DNA of 37,152 nt from a virus. Below the pieces are notes generated by a model, which was not told the origin of the DNA, did not search any database, and saw nothing but the letters and a program-made list of their open reading frames with translations. Position numbers and translations under genes: made by a program. Below, piece by piece: positions 11,367 to 35,914 of the stretch (positions are counted from its first letter, which is position 1; each line of letters opens with the position of its first letter). Location: the IMG/VR virus record IMGVR_UViG_3300010370_000097, positions 1-37,152 of that record; one strand, written 5' to 3'.

Positions 11367-11583
11367 TGTGTTTTCCTTCTAAATGGTCTATATAGCGTTG
11401 TAAATACCACGCTGCTTTCTTTAAGTCTTCTAACACTCGGTCATGCTTCTTGCCTGCTCTTGAAATGTATTTTACAACATTTCCAAGATGAAAACCCAAA
11501 TTCCAGGCTTCAATAACTTTTATTGCCTCGTAAATATTGGATTTTCCTCCATAATGTGAAGGGTGTTCTACTACGTCAGCCAT
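11335..11583 (-). CDS. DUF3310-family protein (T7 gp1.7-like)
   Basis: 82 residues. It carries the DUF3310 signature: HPSHYG at 7-12, YEAIKVIEAWNLGFHLGNVVKYISRAG spanning 18-44, and DLKKAAWYLQRYID near 53-66. The family includes phage T7 gp1.7, a nucleotide kinase, but most members are uncharacterised and this copy is shorter than gp1.7. A role in nucleotide metabolism fits the surrounding genes (inference). The start shares TAATG with the GroES-like stop, and its 3' end overlaps the next gene by 32 nt. Confidence 0.85.
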   Translation of the reverse strand: MADVVEHPSHYGGKSNIYEAIKVIEAWNLGFHLGNVVKYISRAGKKHDRVLEDLKKAAWYLQRYIDHLEGKHNEPGTTTKTV

Positions 11584-11879
11584 TACTCAACCCACGAAGC
11601 CATAATGTGGTTTTCTAAAATGAAACAAAATTCATCACCACGAATTTCTACCTTCTCTAATAGGTGAGTTGGGAAAACAACCTTTGTTCCAAACTCAAAC
11701 TTGGAAACGCAATCGCCCGAGGCTCTTACAACCATAGCGATAGTGTGTTCTCGCAAAACCTCTTTTGAGGTCTTAAAATCCTCTGGAAGAAGAATAAGAG
11801 AAGGTTGTTCTTCTTGCCCTGGGAGGTTCCGTTCCAACTCCACATAAACTCGTCTGTTGTGTGGTTCAATAAAAGACAT
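11583..11879 (-). CDS. GroES-like co-chaperonin
   Basis: 98 residues, typical for a Cpn10 subunit. It shows a first strand PHNRRVYVELE, a loop, then SLILLPEDF. Next come TIAMVVRASGDCVSKFEFGTKVVF (aligning with the G-V-V...G...V-K-G-D-V-V-F centre of GroES) and a closing EKVEIRGDEFCFILENHIMASW. The segment between SLILLPEDF and HTIAMVV lies where GroES has its mobile or roof elements. Phages such as T4 (gp31) carry such proteins to adapt host GroEL to a large capsid protein. The ATG at 11879 (GGAG five nt before) shares TGATG with the upstream stop; a TTG one codon earlier was rejected. Confidence 0.75.
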   Translation of the reverse strand: MSFIEPHNRRVYVELERNLPGQEEQPSLILLPEDFKTSKEVLREHTIAMVVRASGDCVSKFEFGTKVVFPTHLLEKVEIRGDEFCFILENHIMASWVE

Positions 11880-12118
11880 CAATACTCCATAAATTTATTC
11901 AGTTCAATAGCCCGCTCAAACAAACGAAACTTTTCAGTAGGCAAAAGTTGGTCGTGGATTTTCTTACAACGCTTACAGATAAAGCGAACGAAAACCTCGC
12001 CGCCATGCTTTGTTTCAATTTCGCTTGTTGAAAGCCAGTTGTGCTTTTTTAAGCCGCTAGGAGAAGCGGGACAATTTTCATTTTGGTTCTCCCCGGCGAT
12101 AATGTGGTTTAAATTCAT
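11879..12118 (-). CDS. Small protein with CxxC pair, first gene of the long early operon
   Basis: 79 residues. It has one clear CKRC pair near 48-51 followed by KKIHDQLLP, plus Cys16 and a His-rich centre, so it may bind a metal. The end is helical (KFRLFERAIELNKFMEY). The ATG at 12118 has a strong SD (GGAGGG) just downstream of promoter P3. It is followed without a gap by the GroES-like gene. No family recognised. Being promoter-proximal it should be among the most abundant products of this operon. Confidence 0.75.
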   Translation of the reverse strand: MNLNHIIAGENQNENCPASPSGLKKHNWLSTSEIETKHGGEVFVRFICKRCKKIHDQLLPTEKFRLFERAIELNKFMEY

Positions 12119-12184: not shown

Positions 12185-12727
12185 TCAGACCTTCGCTCTT
12201 TGTTGTAGAAGATAGAGGAAAGTTTCCAATTCGTTTGCTTGTGCGGCAAGCAAGTCATTTAAACCAAGGGGCAATTCGCCTGCTTCGTCAAGAGTTTGGA
12301 AAATTTCTGATAAGAGGTCGTGATGACCTTGTAGAACGTCCAAACCTTCACGAACTATTTGATCGGCTGGTTTATCAGTTAGACATTCCATTTGGCTCAA
12401 AATTTCGGCTGCTGCTTGTGTAATGTGAATAGGACAACCAAGTTCTTCAACTCCGGTGTTTCCAATAGCCTTCTCAACAAGACCGTCAAACTGTGCTTCA
12501 AGAGCGGGGTAAATGCCTCCGAAGAGGGTTGTGTGGTCGCCAGCAAAACCAACACCTTTTGTTAGGTTATGAGCGCCGTGGAACCAAAGTTGAGCGGCAC
12601 GGACAGAAGGAATCAACTGACCCATTGAAGAAACAAGCAAAGAACCTTGTTCTTGTGGTGCTTGTTCCATTGCTGCTTCTACTTCTTCTTTGATAATTCG
12701 GCGCAGTTGTGACGCTGTGAGTTTCAT
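12185..12727 (-). CDS. Dps/ferritin-like protein with putative capsid-targeting leader
   Basis: 180 residues. Residues 1-14 (MKLTASQLRRIIKE) form a basic amphipathic leader ending in I-K-E, which fits the (I/L)xE cleavage rule of T4-type prohead proteases. The rest is a predicted four-helix bundle. AQLWFHGAHNLTKGVGFAGDH near 45-65 matches the Dps 'HWN..G..F..LH' helix, and FDGLVEKAI near 80-88 matches the D-x3-E helix. His53, His65, Asp81 and Glu85 have nearly the spacing of Dps ferroxidase ligands (His51, His63, Asp78, Glu82 in E. coli). It may store iron or bind DNA. The leader suggests packaging in the head (inference). The SD is AAGGGG before ATG 12727. A CTATTTATTTGTG motif lies upstream instead of a sigma-70 promoter. 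Confidence 0.75.
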   Translation of the reverse strand: MKLTASQLRRIIKEEVEAAMEQAPQEQGSLLVSSMGQLIPSVRAAQLWFHGAHNLTKGVGFAGDHTTLFGGIYPALEAQFDGLVEKAIGNTGVEELGCPIHITQAAAEILSQMECLTDKPADQIVREGLDVLQGHHDLLSEIFQTLDEAGELPLGLNDLLAAQANELETFLYLLQQRAKV

Positions 12728-12742
12728 TTACTATCCCCTTAA

Positions 12743-12755
12743 CACAAATAAATAG
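12743..12755 (-). promoter_or_regulatory. CTATTTATTTGTG motif (putative late promoter)
   Basis: Minus-strand CTATTTATTTGTG followed by TTAAGGGG, the SD of the Dps-like gene. It differs by one base from copies before the kinase-like and sheath genes. There is no hairpin here, so it is not just a terminator U-tract. Confidence 0.5.
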
Positions 12756-12761
12756 TCTCTT

Positions 12762-12848
12762 TTAATGTAAAACTTCAATATGCTTCTTTATAGCTTTTAC
12801 CACCTGTTGTAGTAACATTCCGACCATTTGAGATTTGGAGCCATTCAT
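12762..12848 (-). CDS. 28-residue ORF overlapping the kinase-like stop (uncertain)
   Basis: 28 codons (MNGSKSQMVGMLLQQVVKA then IKKHIEVLH), amphipathic helix, sharing ATGA with the stop of the kinase-like gene. No clear SD. Base composition returns here to the AT-rich phage average. It may be a tiny coupled gene, or the remnant C-terminus of a former cargo domain replaced by the GC-rich segment. Low confidence as an expressed gene. Confidence 0.3.
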   Translation of the reverse strand: MNGSKSQMVGMLLQQVVKAIKKHIEVLH

Positions 12849-13462
12849 GGTGTACGCTTGCGGGCGGCGCGGGAGCCTTGACGCTGCTTCCGTCCAAGTT
12901 CCCGGCAATCCGCGAAGAGGGAGTACGAGTGGATGAAGCCATAGTCCACCAGTCGCCCGTCCTTCGCCACGTTCGAACTGTTGTATATGAAGTCGCCGAG
13001 CCCGCAGTCGTCGAGCACGCCGCGAGCCTCTGGCGTCACGACGCCGCCGACCTCGACCTCGGACATGAGCAGCCAGCCGTTGTCGTGAGCGTGGTCGAGG
13101 ACCGGCACGAGGTACTTGGCGACGCTGGCGGGGGCCTGCTTCCACAGCAGGGCCTCGTTGCGGTTGTCTCTGAATGGGGGCGAACCGCCCTCGATCTTGA
13201 GCGCCCCCTCGGGGACACGGAAGACGGCGCGGGCGTAACCTGCGCCGAGAAAGGTGATGCCATGCTCCCTCGCGAAGTCCTCGTACTCCTCTGTCGTCAG
13301 GTCGCGCTCGCCGCCTCCCACATCGGAAGCGTAGTCTCGGAACGCTTCCGCCAAGTAATCAAAGTCCCCTCGACGCGAGGGTGTGAGGGTGGAGCCTGTT
13401 TCCAGTTGTTCTTCTGAACCTTCATTTAAAAACCTCTTCCATCTTTCCAACAAAAGTTTCAT
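12845..13462 (-). CDS. Protein-kinase-like protein with putative capsid-targeting leader
   Basis: 205 residues. Residues 1-14 (MKLLLERWKRFLNE) are a basic amphipathic leader ending L-N-E, a good T4-type prohead-protease site, at the same position as in the Dps-like protein. The domain looks kinase-like: FLGAGYARAVF at 71-81 (glycine loop), ALKIEG near 87-92 (Lys89), NEALLW near 102-107 (Glu103), hinge WLLMSEV at 130-136, then GDFIYNSSN near 156-164 and RLVDYG at 170-175 (Asp173 as the DFG-type Asp). The HRD segment is not classical and the C-lobe is short, so it could be a pseudokinase or minimal kinase. Codons after about residue 25 are strikingly GC-rich, unlike the leader and all neighbours. 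GAGG lies 7 nt before ATG 13462. Confidence 0.7.
   Translation of the reverse strand: MKLLLERWKRFLNEGSEEQLETGSTLTPSRRGDFDYLAEAFRDYASDVGGGERDLTTEEYEDFAREHGITFLGAGYARAVFRVPEGALKIEGGSPPFRDNRNEALLWKQAPASVAKYLVPVLDHAHDNGWLLMSEVEVGGVVTPEARGVLDDCGLGDFIYNSSNVAKDGRLVDYGFIHSYSLFADCRELGRKQRQGSRAARKRTP
12850..13390 (-). other. GC-rich segment of foreign composition within the kinase-like gene
   Basis: By eye this roughly 540-bp block is well over 60% GC (runs of gcg, cgg, gcc) in a genome near 40-45%. It begins just after the leader-coding part and ends at the gene's stop codon, so the cargo domain but not the leader or the flanking regulatory DNA has the foreign composition. Confidence 0.85.
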
Positions 13463-13477
13463 TTATTGTCCTCTTAA

Positions 13478-13490
13478 CATAAATAAATAG
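13478..13490 (-). promoter_or_regulatory. CTATTTATTTATG motif (putative late promoter)
   Basis: Minus-strand CTATTTATTTATG followed by TTAAGAGGAC, the SD of the kinase-like gene (ATG 13462). It directly abuts the terminator stem of the RNR operon and could double as its U-rich tail. An identical 13-mer precedes the tail sheath gene. Confidence 0.5.
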
Positions 13491-13520
13491 CCCTTTCTGC
13501 CCGAAATAGACAGAAAGGGC
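13490..13520 (-). terminator. Intrinsic terminator after the helicase-RNR operon
   Basis: A perfect 10-bp stem (13490-13499 with 13511-13520, GCCCTTTCTG/CAGAAAGGGC) and an 11-nt loop, followed on the minus strand by the T-rich TATTTATTTATG. It lies just past the RNR stop at 13528 and separates an early-type operon from the leader-bearing proteins. Confidence 0.8.
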
Positions 13521-13527
13521 GCATTTA

Positions 13528-15381
13528 TCACTTAATTTCGCAGGCTCCGCCTCCGCACGCCACAGAGTCTGTGAGGTTGGTGTTGTCGTCTACTTCATGG
13601 ACGTAATTGAGGTTGATAGAGGTAAGCGTCTTCATCAGTCTTTCGTAGGTTTCTTCGTCGCAGTCCTCAAATGGGGCTTGCTTGTAAGTGTGCTCAAACG
13701 CTGGAAGGACCGATAGACCGTTGTAGAACGCTCGGTTTTCCCACATCCACTCACCAACTACATCCCATTCATCTTCTTTGATAGAAACCGTAGCAGAAAC
13801 GTTGTGGGTGTTTTGACCCTTACGGTGTCCTGCTTTGATCCAAGTTTGACTTACCTTCTTTACTCTTGCGAGTAGGTCAAGAGCCGATTCCGAACGAACG
13901 ATAGAACCTTCTGGTGCCTTCTGTGGAACAGAAATAACAGCGGTGTCGTGAGGACGGAAGAACTCATCTTCAATAAGTTCTGGGTGGTTCTCGGCAAGGT
14001 AGGTGTAAATGGCTTCATTCTTACCAACACGAATGCGACGAATGTAAGTGTCGTTGTGCCAAGCGTGAATGCCCGAAGAAGTTCCAAGAACAAGCGAGGT
14101 TGTGCCGGAAGGCTTGACGCAAGTGGTTCTTGCTGCTGGGTTGATTCCCAAAAGAGCCGCAGCGCGGACATTTTCTTCCTTTACAACTTGTGCTGCCTTT
14201 TCCATATCCAAAGAAAGAACCCTTCCAGACGCAATCCCGGTCATTCCCACGCCGATTAGAGAGTCCTTCTCGGTTGTTCTTTGCCAAACGGGGCGTAGAT
14301 AGTGGAAGTCGGTGTAGGACGCCTGTAAGGTGCCAATAAACGCGGCTGCGCGAACTCTTGCTTCGTATTCTTCCTGGCTTTCCACATCGCTTACATTCAC
14401 TTCTGTAAGGTTGCAGAACTGGTAAGGACGAAGGGCAATTTCGCAGCAAGGGTTGGTTCCCCAGTCTTTATCATTGTTTAGATAAATGCCTGGCTCGCCT
14501 GAACCTGACGCACGGATTCTGGCCCAAAGGTCCATAAAATAACTCTTATCTACCTTGTGGCGAAGAAGAACGGCAGAGTTATTAGCACGACCGCGTTGTG
14601 GGTTTGTTTCCCACCAGTTTCCAGACTTACAAGCGATCATTTCATCATCATCAGCAGAGAACAATGAAATAAGAGCAGCACGACGAATGCCGCCAGCAAG
14701 CACGGCATCTGCGATGTGGCACATAATGTCGTGTGCTTCAATAGGAGTTAGTCTTTCTCCGTCCTTCTTGACGTTCAACATTCCATCGATCTTTACCAAG
14801 CACTCAATAAGTGGCTGTGGTCCTGGTGCCTTGCCGCCTGACGTAACCAAACGGGCACCCTTGGGGCGAATGTCTGAAAAGTCAAAGCGAATGCGGCTTG
14901 TTCCTCTAAAATAAGACTGAATAAGAACACGAACAGCATCAGCCCAGCCTTCAATTGAATCACCAACAAGGAATCGCTTTTCGCGACCGGAAGGACGGCG
15001 GATCTCTGGTAGTTTCTCAACGTGGTGCTTTTGAACCGAGAAACCTACACCTGTTCCACCAAGAAGCAAGAACATAGCCTCGGAGAAAGAACGTAGGTCA
15101 TCAATAGGCATGTAAGCACAATTGAAGATTCGGTTTGGTGCGATCTCAATAGGTTTGCCTCCAAACTGCATAGAACGCATAGAAGGAAGAACTTTGCGAT
15201 CAAAAACAAACTTGTAGGCTGCTCTTATCTGTTCTTCAAGGTGAGGATACTTCTTTACATGCATTAGCACGTTTCGCTCCGTGATTTCCTCAAATGTCTC
15301 ACGGCGGTACTCTTCTGGTAAGTACCGAGCATACTTCATGTGAGTCGTAATATCCGACAGGATTCTAGTTTCAAGATTCAT
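13528..15381 (-). CDS. nrdJ: Class II (adenosylcobalamin-dependent) ribonucleotide reductase
   Basis: 617 residues, monomeric RTPR type. It reduces ribonucleotides to deoxyribonucleotides using a B12-derived radical, without oxygen or a second subunit. Visible: NC at 87-88 (first redox Cys), LLLGGTGVGFS near 105-115, NPCCEI at 310-315 with Asn310, Cys312 and Glu314 in the catalytic loop, and Cys323 as the second redox Cys. PSGTTSLVLGTSSGIH is the phosphate-binding segment. A C-terminal CGGGAC (609-614) gives the CxxxxC shuttle tail. Cys313 next to the radical Cys is an oddity. It is about 120 residues shorter than the Lactobacillus enzyme. The start at ATG 15381 overlaps the helicase stop by 11 nt. 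The phage depends on host cobalamin (inference). Confidence 0.95.
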   Translation of the reverse strand: MNLETRILSDITTHMKYARYLPEEYRRETFEEITERNVLMHVKKYPHLEEQIRAAYKFVFDRKVLPSMRSMQFGGKPIEIAPNRIFNCAYMPIDDLRSFSEAMFLLLGGTGVGFSVQKHHVEKLPEIRRPSGREKRFLVGDSIEGWADAVRVLIQSYFRGTSRIRFDFSDIRPKGARLVTSGGKAPGPQPLIECLVKIDGMLNVKKDGERLTPIEAHDIMCHIADAVLAGGIRRAALISLFSADDDEMIACKSGNWWETNPQRGRANNSAVLLRHKVDKSYFMDLWARIRASGSGEPGIYLNNDKDWGTNPCCEIALRPYQFCNLTEVNVSDVESQEEYEARVRAAAFIGTLQASYTDFHYLRPVWQRTTEKDSLIGVGMTGIASGRVLSLDMEKAAQVVKEENVRAAALLGINPAARTTCVKPSGTTSLVLGTSSGIHAWHNDTYIRRIRVGKNEAIYTYLAENHPELIEDEFFRPHDTAVISVPQKAPEGSIVRSESALDLLARVKKVSQTWIKAGHRKGQNTHNVSATVSIKEDEWDVVGEWMWENRAFYNGLSVLPAFEHTYKQAPFEDCDEETYERLMKTLTSINLNYVHEVDDNTNLTDSVACGGGACEIK

Positions 15382-32926: not shown

Positions 32927-35878
32927 TCAGTCTTCGAAAGAAGCACCGGTTCTGGAGATAACGAAGTCAACTGCGATGAATTCGATAGCTCTTGCTGGTT
33001 TCAAGTAGATCTTGGCGTATAGAATGTTACGATCTATCAAGTCTGGAGTTGTTGTAGTTTCATCAAGGATAAGTCTGTATTCGGTCAAACCCAGTCTGGC
33101 TTGGACTGAACCCAAGAATGGTTCAACAGCAGCCTTGAAACGATTCCAAGTTACGGTGACGTTTGGATCGAAAAGAACGTTAGCAGCAAATCTAGAAATC
33201 TGCTTCTTGACGTAGATCATTAGTCTACGAACATTGATACGGTCAAGAGCAGAAGGAGTGACTTGAAGCGTCTTTTGACCAAAGACCACAATGCCCTCAG
33301 ATGGGAAAGAAGCAATTGGGTTGATGTTTGCGGCGTAAAGGTCATCACGTTGCTTAGAGGTTAGCTTCTCAACAACGTTGACGACAGGCAAACCAGCAGC
33401 ACCTGTGCTTAGACCACCACGGTTGAAACCAGCAGGAGCAAACCAAACTTCGCTAACTCTTTCAGAGGAAGCCATAGTTCCGAGTGCGACAACTGAAGGT
33501 GGAACCCAAACCAATTGACCATTGATTGAATCGCGAATTTGTACCCAAGGGTAGTAAGTACAAGCATACGAGGAATTGATTCTACGGGCGCGGAGGTTGG
33601 TTACTGCGTTGTTAACAGAACCAAGTCTTGACTTGAATGTTCTTGTAGTAGCGTTTGCTTCGGTAGAAGCTTTGTAACCATCATCAATATCAATGACAGC
33701 AAGAGCGTCAGCACGGGATTCGCAAGCAGTAATAACCTTATCTGTGATTGCACTATTACGAATGCCTGGGACAACGATCATGTTTGTTTCAAGCATATTT
33801 GGATCAGAAGCCAAGTCAATAGCTACTTCAACCGAGTTGTATTCTGCGCTAGCCTTGTTGTTGGTACCAGACAATCTTCTGTATTGGAAAGGTTCGGCTT
33901 CTTGAATGTTTAGACCATCAGAGCCGCCTTGGAATAGTGCTGTGAAGCGTGCGAAGCCAGCATTGATGACTGACTTGTAGCCAGAGTCACTACCGGTTGC
34001 AGAGGCATTTAGAGCGGTCTTGGAGGTACCAGCAGCGCGAGAACCGCTTAGGTAATAAGCTTGGTTATTATTGCTGCCACCGACGATAAGATCATCAAGC
34101 GAGAATACCCATTGATGTTCAAATACAGAGCTAGCGGAAAGACCACCAATACCAATGTTTTGGCTCTCATCAATACCGTATAGTCTTAGGCAATCTGGAA
34201 CGCTAGCATCGTAGCGGCTAGAGTCAGCACTAATGGTTGTACGAGCGCCAAAGTAAGCTTTGGTTGGATCTGTGATAGAACCATCAGAAGCAGAAAGTCT
34301 TTGTGAAGTACCTGGGAATACAACCGAAGAAGTAAAGGTACTAGCACCACTAATGTAAGAATCAGTTCTACTGGCAGGCCAGAAGCTACCGTGTCCAATC
34401 ATACTAACAAGTGTACCAGCGGTTGTGCCGGTTCTTAGTTGAGAAACAGTCTTTGGACGAATTGGACCATAGACACCAAACGGTAATAGTTCTGCTCCAA
34501 ATAGACCTTCTTCCAAAGAAGGATTAACTTCAACGCGGATATAACGTGATTGGTTATCATATTGACCATATTCTTTATTGATACGAAGTGTGTAATCAAA
34601 CTTTCTTGTCTTATCACCAATACGCACACCGATATAATCGGTTGAGTTTGGATTTAGATTTACGTTATCGAATCTTTCAAGAACAGTTGGCGAAGCATCT
34701 GTATCGCGAATTGAGCGAATAACAACGCTGAACTTTCCGTAAGGTTCGACATCGGCATTTGGAGATACTTGTAGATTCTCAATAGAAACTTTGATATTCT
34801 TTTGTGTCCATTCACCGGCATCTAAGCCGTGGAAACGGAATAGCTTAGTCATCGTATCGTAAGAATAAGAGCCTGTATCTGTGTTTAGATCTTGCGAGAA
34901 AAACCAACCAGTTCTTGCATCAATGATGTTGGAATCTGTACGCATTGAGAAGTTTGGACCAAATCTCATTCCGTTGTAGGCATATCCATCGGATAAAACT
35001 GAACCGGTTGTCTTAGCAACTGGTGAAAGCCAAGCGAATACTTCGCTGAATGTACCAGTTAGAATTTGCTGAACTTGTGTTTCGTAAGTCTCTCCAAGCC
35101 AGTAAACTCCTTCATTCTTGGTTAGAGATGTGGAATCAACAAGAATGGTGTTGGTCAACACAGGGTTGGTATTGAACACATTTCTTGCAAATTGTGAACT
35201 GTCTCTATCAAGATTGAACTTGAACTTGATTGGAGTTCCATAAGCATTAGTGGAGAAAACTTGTGCGGTAAGTTCAACAGCAGCGTTAGAACCACTAAAG
35301 CGAATAACTTCATTAGAACCAGTACCTGCCGCACCAGTTCTATCAAGTGTACCAGAAAGTACGATACCGCCCTTGGTAACGTAGAATACAGCAGCCAAAG
35401 TGGCTGTATGTTGACCATTGCTAGCAGATGGAGCAACGAATAGACCATAAGCTCCACCACCAGTAGCGGTGCCATAAGAAACTGAGCTAGGTGATGAGCC
35501 GCCTGAATAATCATAGGTTGTCCAGCCTGCTTCTCCATTAGCGTCGGTTGTTTCAGCGTGTGGAGTTCCAAGCAAACGAATGAAGTTAACTGGTCCAACA
35601 CCAGCAGCGAGATAAGCTTGTGCGCCATAAACACCGTAGGTGGGACCAGCAAAAGTGGAAGCTCTGTAATCAGAGTCAATACCACCAGCTACAGGAGGAC
35701 CGAATTGATCAACGAAATCGGAAAACGAGTCAACCTTGATTGGGTGCATAGCGCGACCCTTTGTAGCGCGACCAATGATGGTTGGTCCAATAGCACCTGG
35801 AGGTTGAGGAATTTGGGAGTTATCAATCTCGTTGAGAAAGATACCTGGTGAAACAAACTTAAAACTATTAGCTGGCAT
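32927..35878 (-). CDS. 18: Tail sheath protein (gp18 family), enlarged
   Basis: 983 residues against 659 in T4 gp18. The N-terminus is canonical: FVSPGIFLNEIDNSQIP near 8-24, then GPTIIGRATKGRAMHPIKVDSFSDFVDQFG near 31-60 and GVYGAQAYLAAGVGPVNFIRLLG. The conserved C-terminal core is also present: VPPSVVALGTMASSERVSEVWFAPAGFNRG, then SEGIVVFGQKTLQ and NVRRLMIYVKKQISRFAANVLFDPN. The extra length is in the middle (about 130-640), Ser/Thr/Gly-rich and probably surface-exposed domains on the contractile sheath. AGAGGAG precedes ATG 35878, downstream of CTATTTATTTATG. Confidence 0.95.
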   Translation of the reverse strand: MPANSFKFVSPGIFLNEIDNSQIPQPPGAIGPTIIGRATKGRAMHPIKVDSFSDFVDQFGPPVAGGIDSDYRASTFAGPTYGVYGAQAYLAAGVGPVNFIRLLGTPHAETTDANGEAGWTTYDYSGGSSPSSVSYGTATGGGAYGLFVAPSASNGQHTATLAAVFYVTKGGIVLSGTLDRTGAAGTGSNEVIRFSGSNAAVELTAQVFSTNAYGTPIKFKFNLDRDSSQFARNVFNTNPVLTNTILVDSTSLTKNEGVYWLGETYETQVQQILTGTFSEVFAWLSPVAKTTGSVLSDGYAYNGMRFGPNFSMRTDSNIIDARTGWFFSQDLNTDTGSYSYDTMTKLFRFHGLDAGEWTQKNIKVSIENLQVSPNADVEPYGKFSVVIRSIRDTDASPTVLERFDNVNLNPNSTDYIGVRIGDKTRKFDYTLRINKEYGQYDNQSRYIRVEVNPSLEEGLFGAELLPFGVYGPIRPKTVSQLRTGTTAGTLVSMIGHGSFWPASRTDSYISGASTFTSSVVFPGTSQRLSASDGSITDPTKAYFGARTTISADSSRYDASVPDCLRLYGIDESQNIGIGGLSASSVFEHQWVFSLDDLIVGGSNNNQAYYLSGSRAAGTSKTALNASATGSDSGYKSVINAGFARFTALFQGGSDGLNIQEAEPFQYRRLSGTNNKASAEYNSVEVAIDLASDPNMLETNMIVVPGIRNSAITDKVITACESRADALAVIDIDDGYKASTEANATTRTFKSRLGSVNNAVTNLRARRINSSYACTYYPWVQIRDSINGQLVWVPPSVVALGTMASSERVSEVWFAPAGFNRGGLSTGAAGLPVVNVVEKLTSKQRDDLYAANINPIASFPSEGIVVFGQKTLQVTPSALDRINVRRLMIYVKKQISRFAANVLFDPNVTVTWNRFKAAVEPFLGSVQARLGLTEYRLILDETTTTPDLIDRNILYAKIYLKPARAIEFIAVDFVISRTGASFED

Positions 35879-35901: not shown

Positions 35902-35914
35902 CATAAATAAATAG
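35902..35914 (-). promoter_or_regulatory. CTATTTATTTATG motif before the sheath gene (putative late promoter)
   Basis: Minus-strand CTATTTATTTATG, identical over 13 nt to the copy before the kinase-like gene, 24 nt upstream of the sheath ATG. No terminator stem is adjacent, which supports a promoter reading over a terminator tail. Confidence 0.55.

Follow-up and report, generated by a model that had tools for sequence, protein, structure and literature searches.

Two adjacent genes of an uncultured T4-like phage begin with short N-terminal leaders of a kind that recurs, in related phages, on hundreds of unrelated proteins. We put at roughly 0.76 the probability that these leaders are interchangeable capsid-targeting propeptides, whose cargo proteins would be packed into the head, freed by an S77 prohead protease and sent into the next host. 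This reading is built on sequence and on the analogy with phage T4, where the internal proteins IPI-III and Alt, which are cut by gp21, carry, as here, a short MK... leader (CTS) that ends in (I/L)xE and stands on otherwise unrelated proteins. An earlier note on this DNA had proposed such a modular cargo-into-capsid system. It is strongly, though indirectly, supported by the hundreds of bodies found behind the leaders, by swaps joined at the predicted cut, by co-occurrence and adjacency with the S77 protease and by candidate sites in the relative L001; the leaders themselves are not recognisable homologues of the T4 CTS, and profiles of the two leaders, termed A and B, gave no match in the T4 genome, only the general form MK...(I/L)xE being held in common. 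The best reading is that the system is new in sequence and in scale; its function is likened to that of the T4 CTS, and homology is not claimed.

Two putative cargo genes and a variable slot

The window, that is, the whole 37,152-base IMG/VR record analysed here, derives from a divergent T4-like contractile-tailed phage, with genes for the sheath, the tail tube and further tail proteins (PHROG/Pfam). Its closest records in the phage collection show a partial sheath match only, at an identity below 60%, and relatives of the window are numerous in IMG/VR. The window holds neither a protease nor a capsid gene; the head region is not reached. The features that matter here all lie on the minus strand:

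11583..11882, minus strand: Cpn10 (GroES)-like gene (PF00166, E 2e-4), next to the cargo slot on its downstream side
12185..12727, minus strand: Dps-like cargo gene, 180 aa, with leader A (PHROG 3636 'DNA binding protein', E 3.5e-4; fold)
12686..12727, minus strand: codons 1-14, leader A, MKLTASQLRRIIKE; conserved across the family as far as about codon 16
12746..12755, minus strand: CTATTTATTT before the Dps-like gene, first base 28 nt ahead of the start
12762-12848, minus strand: 28-aa ORF (MNGSKSQMVGMLLQQVVKAIKKHIEVLH), its ATG overlapping the stop of the kinase-like gene (ATGA)
12845..13462, minus strand: kinase-like orphan cargo gene, 205 aa, with leader B (named from motifs only)
12845..13396, minus strand: GC-rich (about 65%) part of the kinase-like gene, beginning at codon 23 (GC change point, composition)
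13421..13462, minus strand: leader B, codons 1-14, MKLLLERWKRFLNE, 29% GC; 86% nucleotide identity with an unrelated same-slot gene of L051
13481..13490, minus strand: CTATTTATTT before the kinase-like gene, first base 28 nt ahead of the start
13490..13520, minus strand: terminator-like 13-bp hairpin (from sequence), adjoining the kinase-like gene's CTATTTATTT copy on the upstream side
13528..15381, minus strand: reductase-like gene, upstream of the variable cargo slot (translation read by eye)
32927..35878, minus strand: tail sheath gene, 983 aa (PHROG 23, E 7.8e-68), the late-gene reference and the key to relatives
35905..35914, minus strand: CTATTTATTT before the tail sheath gene, first base 36 nt ahead of the start

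The N-terminus of the Dps-like protein is MKLTASQLRRIIKEEV and that of the kinase-like protein MKLLLERWKRFLNEGS. As the earlier note had observed, and as the translations confirm, both start with MKL and carry an (I/L)xE that ends at residue 14 (I-K-E and L-N-E, respectively, at residues 12-14), and the bodies behind these starts are unrelated. The description of the leaders as basic amphipathic helices stands in part: the model of the Dps-like protein has a helix at residues 5-21 and the net charges are +1 and +2, but amphipathicity is weak, the hydrophobic moments being modestly high relative to shuffles (fractions of 0.083 for the Dps-like and 0.070 for the kinase-like leader). Strong amphipathicity, not clearly above that of shuffles, was rejected as a property of the leaders.

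The assignment of the first cargo as ferritin-like is supported by its predicted structure. The AlphaFold model (pLDDT 90) places a low-confidence linker (residues 22-27) between the leader helix and a four-helix bundle, and in a PDB fold search the best 50 matches were nearly all Dps or Dpr proteins, with TM-scores of about 0.6-0.7. These mini-ferritins have the four-helix fold in common with the phage protein, at an identity to it of under about 20%. Six residues that may include ferroxidase ligands (H50, H53, D64, H65, D81 and E85) are invariant in 16 homologues. The protein of the window bears the leader and linker as an extra, unlike the phage homologues L059-L067, which have no recognisable leader.

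The kinase identity given to the second cargo has fared less well and is a guess from sequence. Motifs occur in a kinase-like order, namely LGAGYA (glycine loop), ALKI (VAIK lysine), NEALLW (αC glutamate) and VDYG (DFG), with what would be a very short C-lobe; the protein is an orphan with motif-level resemblance, no kinase domain having been found by profile or fold and no relative of its body in viral contigs, bacterial genomes, the PDB, NCBIfam or Pfam. A predicted structure of the protein alone (pLDDT 36) was uninformative and was discarded. The GC content of its leader is 29% against 64% for the body (p 9e-6), and the composition shifts most clearly at codon 23. The body was thus probably imported behind a phage leader.

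The slot between the reductase-like and Dps-like genes holds different leader-bearing genes in different relatives. Upstream of it, the product of 13528-15381 reads as a putative ribonucleotide reductase; the corresponding gene of L045 (3890-4936), L055 (445-1491) and L057 (3444-4490) seems to contain an intein-like insertion (...NHNFFANELLVHN/CEIALRPYQ), which is absent from that of the window. A homing-endonuclease-like gene of about 190 aa lies in the slot beside the Dps-like gene in L050 (1527-2108) and L052 (1247-1819). The 28-aa ORF was considered as a remnant of an older cargo, and relatives were sought for it, of which none matched.

That both cargo genes share an upstream motif with the sheath gene, as proposed earlier, was upheld: CTATTTATTT occurs exactly three times in the window, against a mean of 0.09 in dinucleotide shuffles, which never reach three. 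In three large relatives it lies upstream of the sheath, scaffold, a baseplate-like gene and leader genes, and in L001 also upstream of the gene that follows the capsid protein gene. Since it precedes both structural and leader genes, the motif behaves as a late-gene signal would. The hairpin at 13490-13520 abuts the copy at 13481-13490, which thus overlaps a possible terminator tail; the copies before the Dps-like and sheath genes have no such hairpin, and a similar stem is also found upstream of leader genes in relatives. The late promoter of T4 is TATAAATA, from which the motif of this clade differs; read on the other strand, CTATTTATTT gives AAATAAATAG, which resembles the T4 promoter in the opposite orientation.

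Leader families and their exchange

Leader A has the consensus MKhTxxQLxxIIKEE and leader B MKLLxExWxxFLNE. [IL]xE is itself short and frequent, ending somewhere in residues 10-19 in 20% of ORFs. A search for further MK...(I/L)xE starts, which the earlier note had suggested, covered 672 ORFs from the window and related contigs. MK together with [IL]xE at residue 14 occurs in 12 of them and stands above chance, all 12 being recognisable as leader A or B. Back-translated scans of viral contigs for both leaders, which give a lower bound on prevalence, recovered with a wider pattern at least 461 leader ORFs (319 A, 142 B) on 320 body clusters in uncultured T4-like contigs. Comparison of N-termini free of any pattern yielded one component of at least 503 ORFs, whose bodies fall into 331 families; other leaders appeared in smaller families. 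Even where an ORF did not fit the scan patterns, residue 14 closes an [IL]xE in 145 of 168 cases for leader A and in 27 of 56 for leader B.

A third leader type, ...KRIDPRYF(L/M)xE (e.g. ...KRIDPRYFLHE), has 19 members in 17 body families and is found in L129, L207, L220, L271, L292, L314, L330 and others; its L/M and E are conserved in 11/11 sequences and conservation drops thereafter. Rarer leaders, such as MSTKDWKNKExxxLLAEAWG, likewise end in LxE. The cargo domains recognised include zeta-toxin/AAA kinases, GNAT, DUF192, YkuD, NUDIX, HD, HNH, nucleotidyltransferase and 5'-nucleotidase. Dense leader arrays were also seen, with six exact leader A matches within about 2.2 kb (L188:2731-4897) and nine leader B hits within about 6 kb (G026:2807-8747).

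Leaders also change places on related bodies. Eleven body clusters include members of both types, the leader differing from phage to phage; at least one of the 11 looks to be chained by charged segments and was set aside, the clear cases being a P-loop kinase, an HHMTI phosphodiesterase-like family and INSWFN. The Dps genes of L050 and L051 agree at every nucleotide after codon 22 (100% identity), whilst their leaders are 69% identical in codons 1-14 and 50% in codons 15-22. An assembly chimaera is a less likely cause of this swap, as the join keeps the frame and both genes have an intact leader. Conversely, L051 has an unrelated 159-aa gene in the slot that the kinase-like gene occupies in the window; the two are 86% identical in nucleotides over codons 1-14, after which identity falls to 46% and then 25%.

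Searches of phage records by tblastn, with both proteins and with leader queries of 20-21 aa, gave no match but one, at E 4, in a podovirus. Such searches are too insensitive for short peptides, as they missed LR756508, an uncultured 484-kb phage with 18 leader A profile matches. No paper on these leader families was found in the open-access literature.

The S77 prohead protease and the candidate cut sites

The earlier note had pointed to a gp21-type protease with matching sites in capsid protein and scaffold, and the protease and candidate sites of this kind were both found outside the window. The protease (S77, PF03420) is encoded by the relatives G001-G005, with H85, S140 and D168 (T4 numbering) invariant in 25/25 aligned S77 sequences including that of T4, so that the catalytic positions are the same as those of T4 gp21. 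It is present in 21 of the 25 leader contigs longer than 100 kb, and in 21/21 of those that hold a capsid module; the remaining four also lack a Gp23 gene, so the capsid module is probably off the fragment. Amongst shorter leader contigs it is found in 23 of 50, against 0 of 43 random contigs (p 4e-8). Since the random contigs come from phages of every type, the comparison indicates that leaders belong to S77 phages; that they need S77 does not follow. A profile search of T4, cyanophages, pelagiphages and others with S77 found no convincing leader A or B, so the leaders mark a lineage within this group. The S77 match of LR756508.1 (156507-158102) falls in two pieces of a 576-aa frame, perhaps owing to an intein or insertion.

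Of 15 contigs, 9 have a leader no more than 1.5 kb from the S77 gene, where chance would give 1.7 (P 5e-5). Leader and S77 are on the same strand in all 82 pairs, which was not counted as evidence because nearly all genes of these phages share one strand. In G001-G003 a leader A gene directly precedes the protease gene, the position of T4 genes 67/68, and it is from this position that the first alternative draws its strength: the leaders would bind the prohead core, but their proteins would be mainly assembly parts (core or scaffold helpers), degraded or expelled in maturation and never delivered. The core proteins of T4 are indeed cut into fragments (PMC9026906). We consider this unlikely, given that enzymes and enzyme-like proteins (zeta/AAA kinases, NUDIX, GNAT, YkuD, HNH) are common among the cargoes and that the genes of one slot are replaced rapidly, which would not be expected of essential assembly parts.

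Gp21 is specific for L/I-x-E, and the CTS propeptides of T4 internal proteins are 10-19 residues long (PMC9026906). L001 shares 9,781 bases with the window, 22 of them mismatched (99.8% identical), and carries capsid genes as well. Its major capsid protein (QLLKE/STT) and scaffold (PLTE/SVD) each have a candidate site of this form, read from sequence and alike to RIIKE of the Dps-like leader and RFLNE of the kinase-like leader. Across the Gp23 proteins sampled, the stretch that corresponds to the T4 propeptide contains (L/V)L(K/R)E, and the next residue is in most cases A, S or T. Leader A retains E at residue 15 and L/I at residue 16, where the capsid-protein site has a small residue after the cut; the conserved E15 makes the exact cut in leader A uncertain and a cut after residue 14 doubtful. 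A second [IL]xE ends at residue 22 in 37 of 168 pattern-independent leader A ORFs.

The same E15 suggests a docking surface, and leader genes lie among tail genes in L058, as would suit an alternative in which the leaders dock to a host target or, like the N-terminal signals of contractile injection systems, to the tail tube or baseplate, (I/L)xE being part of a docking helix that is not cut. This too is improbable: the gene adjacency is to the prohead protease, the unrelated leader types have little in common but a terminal (L/I/M)xE, and conservation of leader B and of the third type ends right after the E. Lastly, although hairpin, motif and leader recur together before different genes in the reductase-side slot, it is very improbable that the shared N-termini reflect a DNA-level cassette (hairpin, promoter-like motif, ribosome site, first codons) copied ahead of genes and encoding a peptide with no role, since leader A is kept as protein with varied synonymous codons (within-locus pairs differ synonymously at 1,853 codons) and the Dps leaders of L050 and L051 are both leader A despite different upstream DNA.

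A proposed delivery system and its meaning

Under the capsid-targeting reading, and following T4 for docking, cleavage, packaging, ejection and the roles of the cargo, the cargo genes would be expressed late, together with the structural genes. The leader helix would dock each protein on the prohead core (scaffold plus core proteins), and assembly of the shell would enclose it. Cutting after (I/L)xE by the S77 protease would then free the cargo inside the head, the propeptide comprising perhaps the first 14 residues for leader B and extending to about residue 22 for leader A, and the cargo would exit with the DNA at the next infection. There, the Dps-fold protein could plausibly serve in DNA protection or in iron/peroxide detoxification on entry, and the orphan kinase-like protein may act on the host.

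Both T4 and this clade have L-x-E sites in the capsid protein and scaffold, and cargo genes in variable spots. In contrast to T4, this clade has several leader types and hundreds of cargo families, and leader A differs from the T4 CTS in having no aromatic residue and in continuing past E14. In giant phages such as SPN3US and phiKZ, propeptides of packaged ejection proteins are removed after a short x-x-E motif (PMC5694885). As judged from the published description, the SPN3US motif is A-x-E, the propeptides are other ones and the protease is of the S80 type (MEROPS family S80), a distant relative (PMC5694885).

The leader-tagged IPI-III of T4 counter host defence by blocking type IV restriction, and the leader has served to identify many such genes in T-even phages (PMC12373910). 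On balance we favour the view that several unrelated, interchangeable leaders served by one prohead protease would form an open address code, allowing a very large and fast-changing effector repertoire to be loaded into the head and making injected proteins readable from sequence. If the leaders act similarly to those of T4, hundreds of uncharacterised proteins of uncultured phages would become testable candidates for injected effectors. A further gain would be new natural tags with which to direct proteins into phage heads, together with an example of a targeting signal that spreads through swaps at or near its own cut site.
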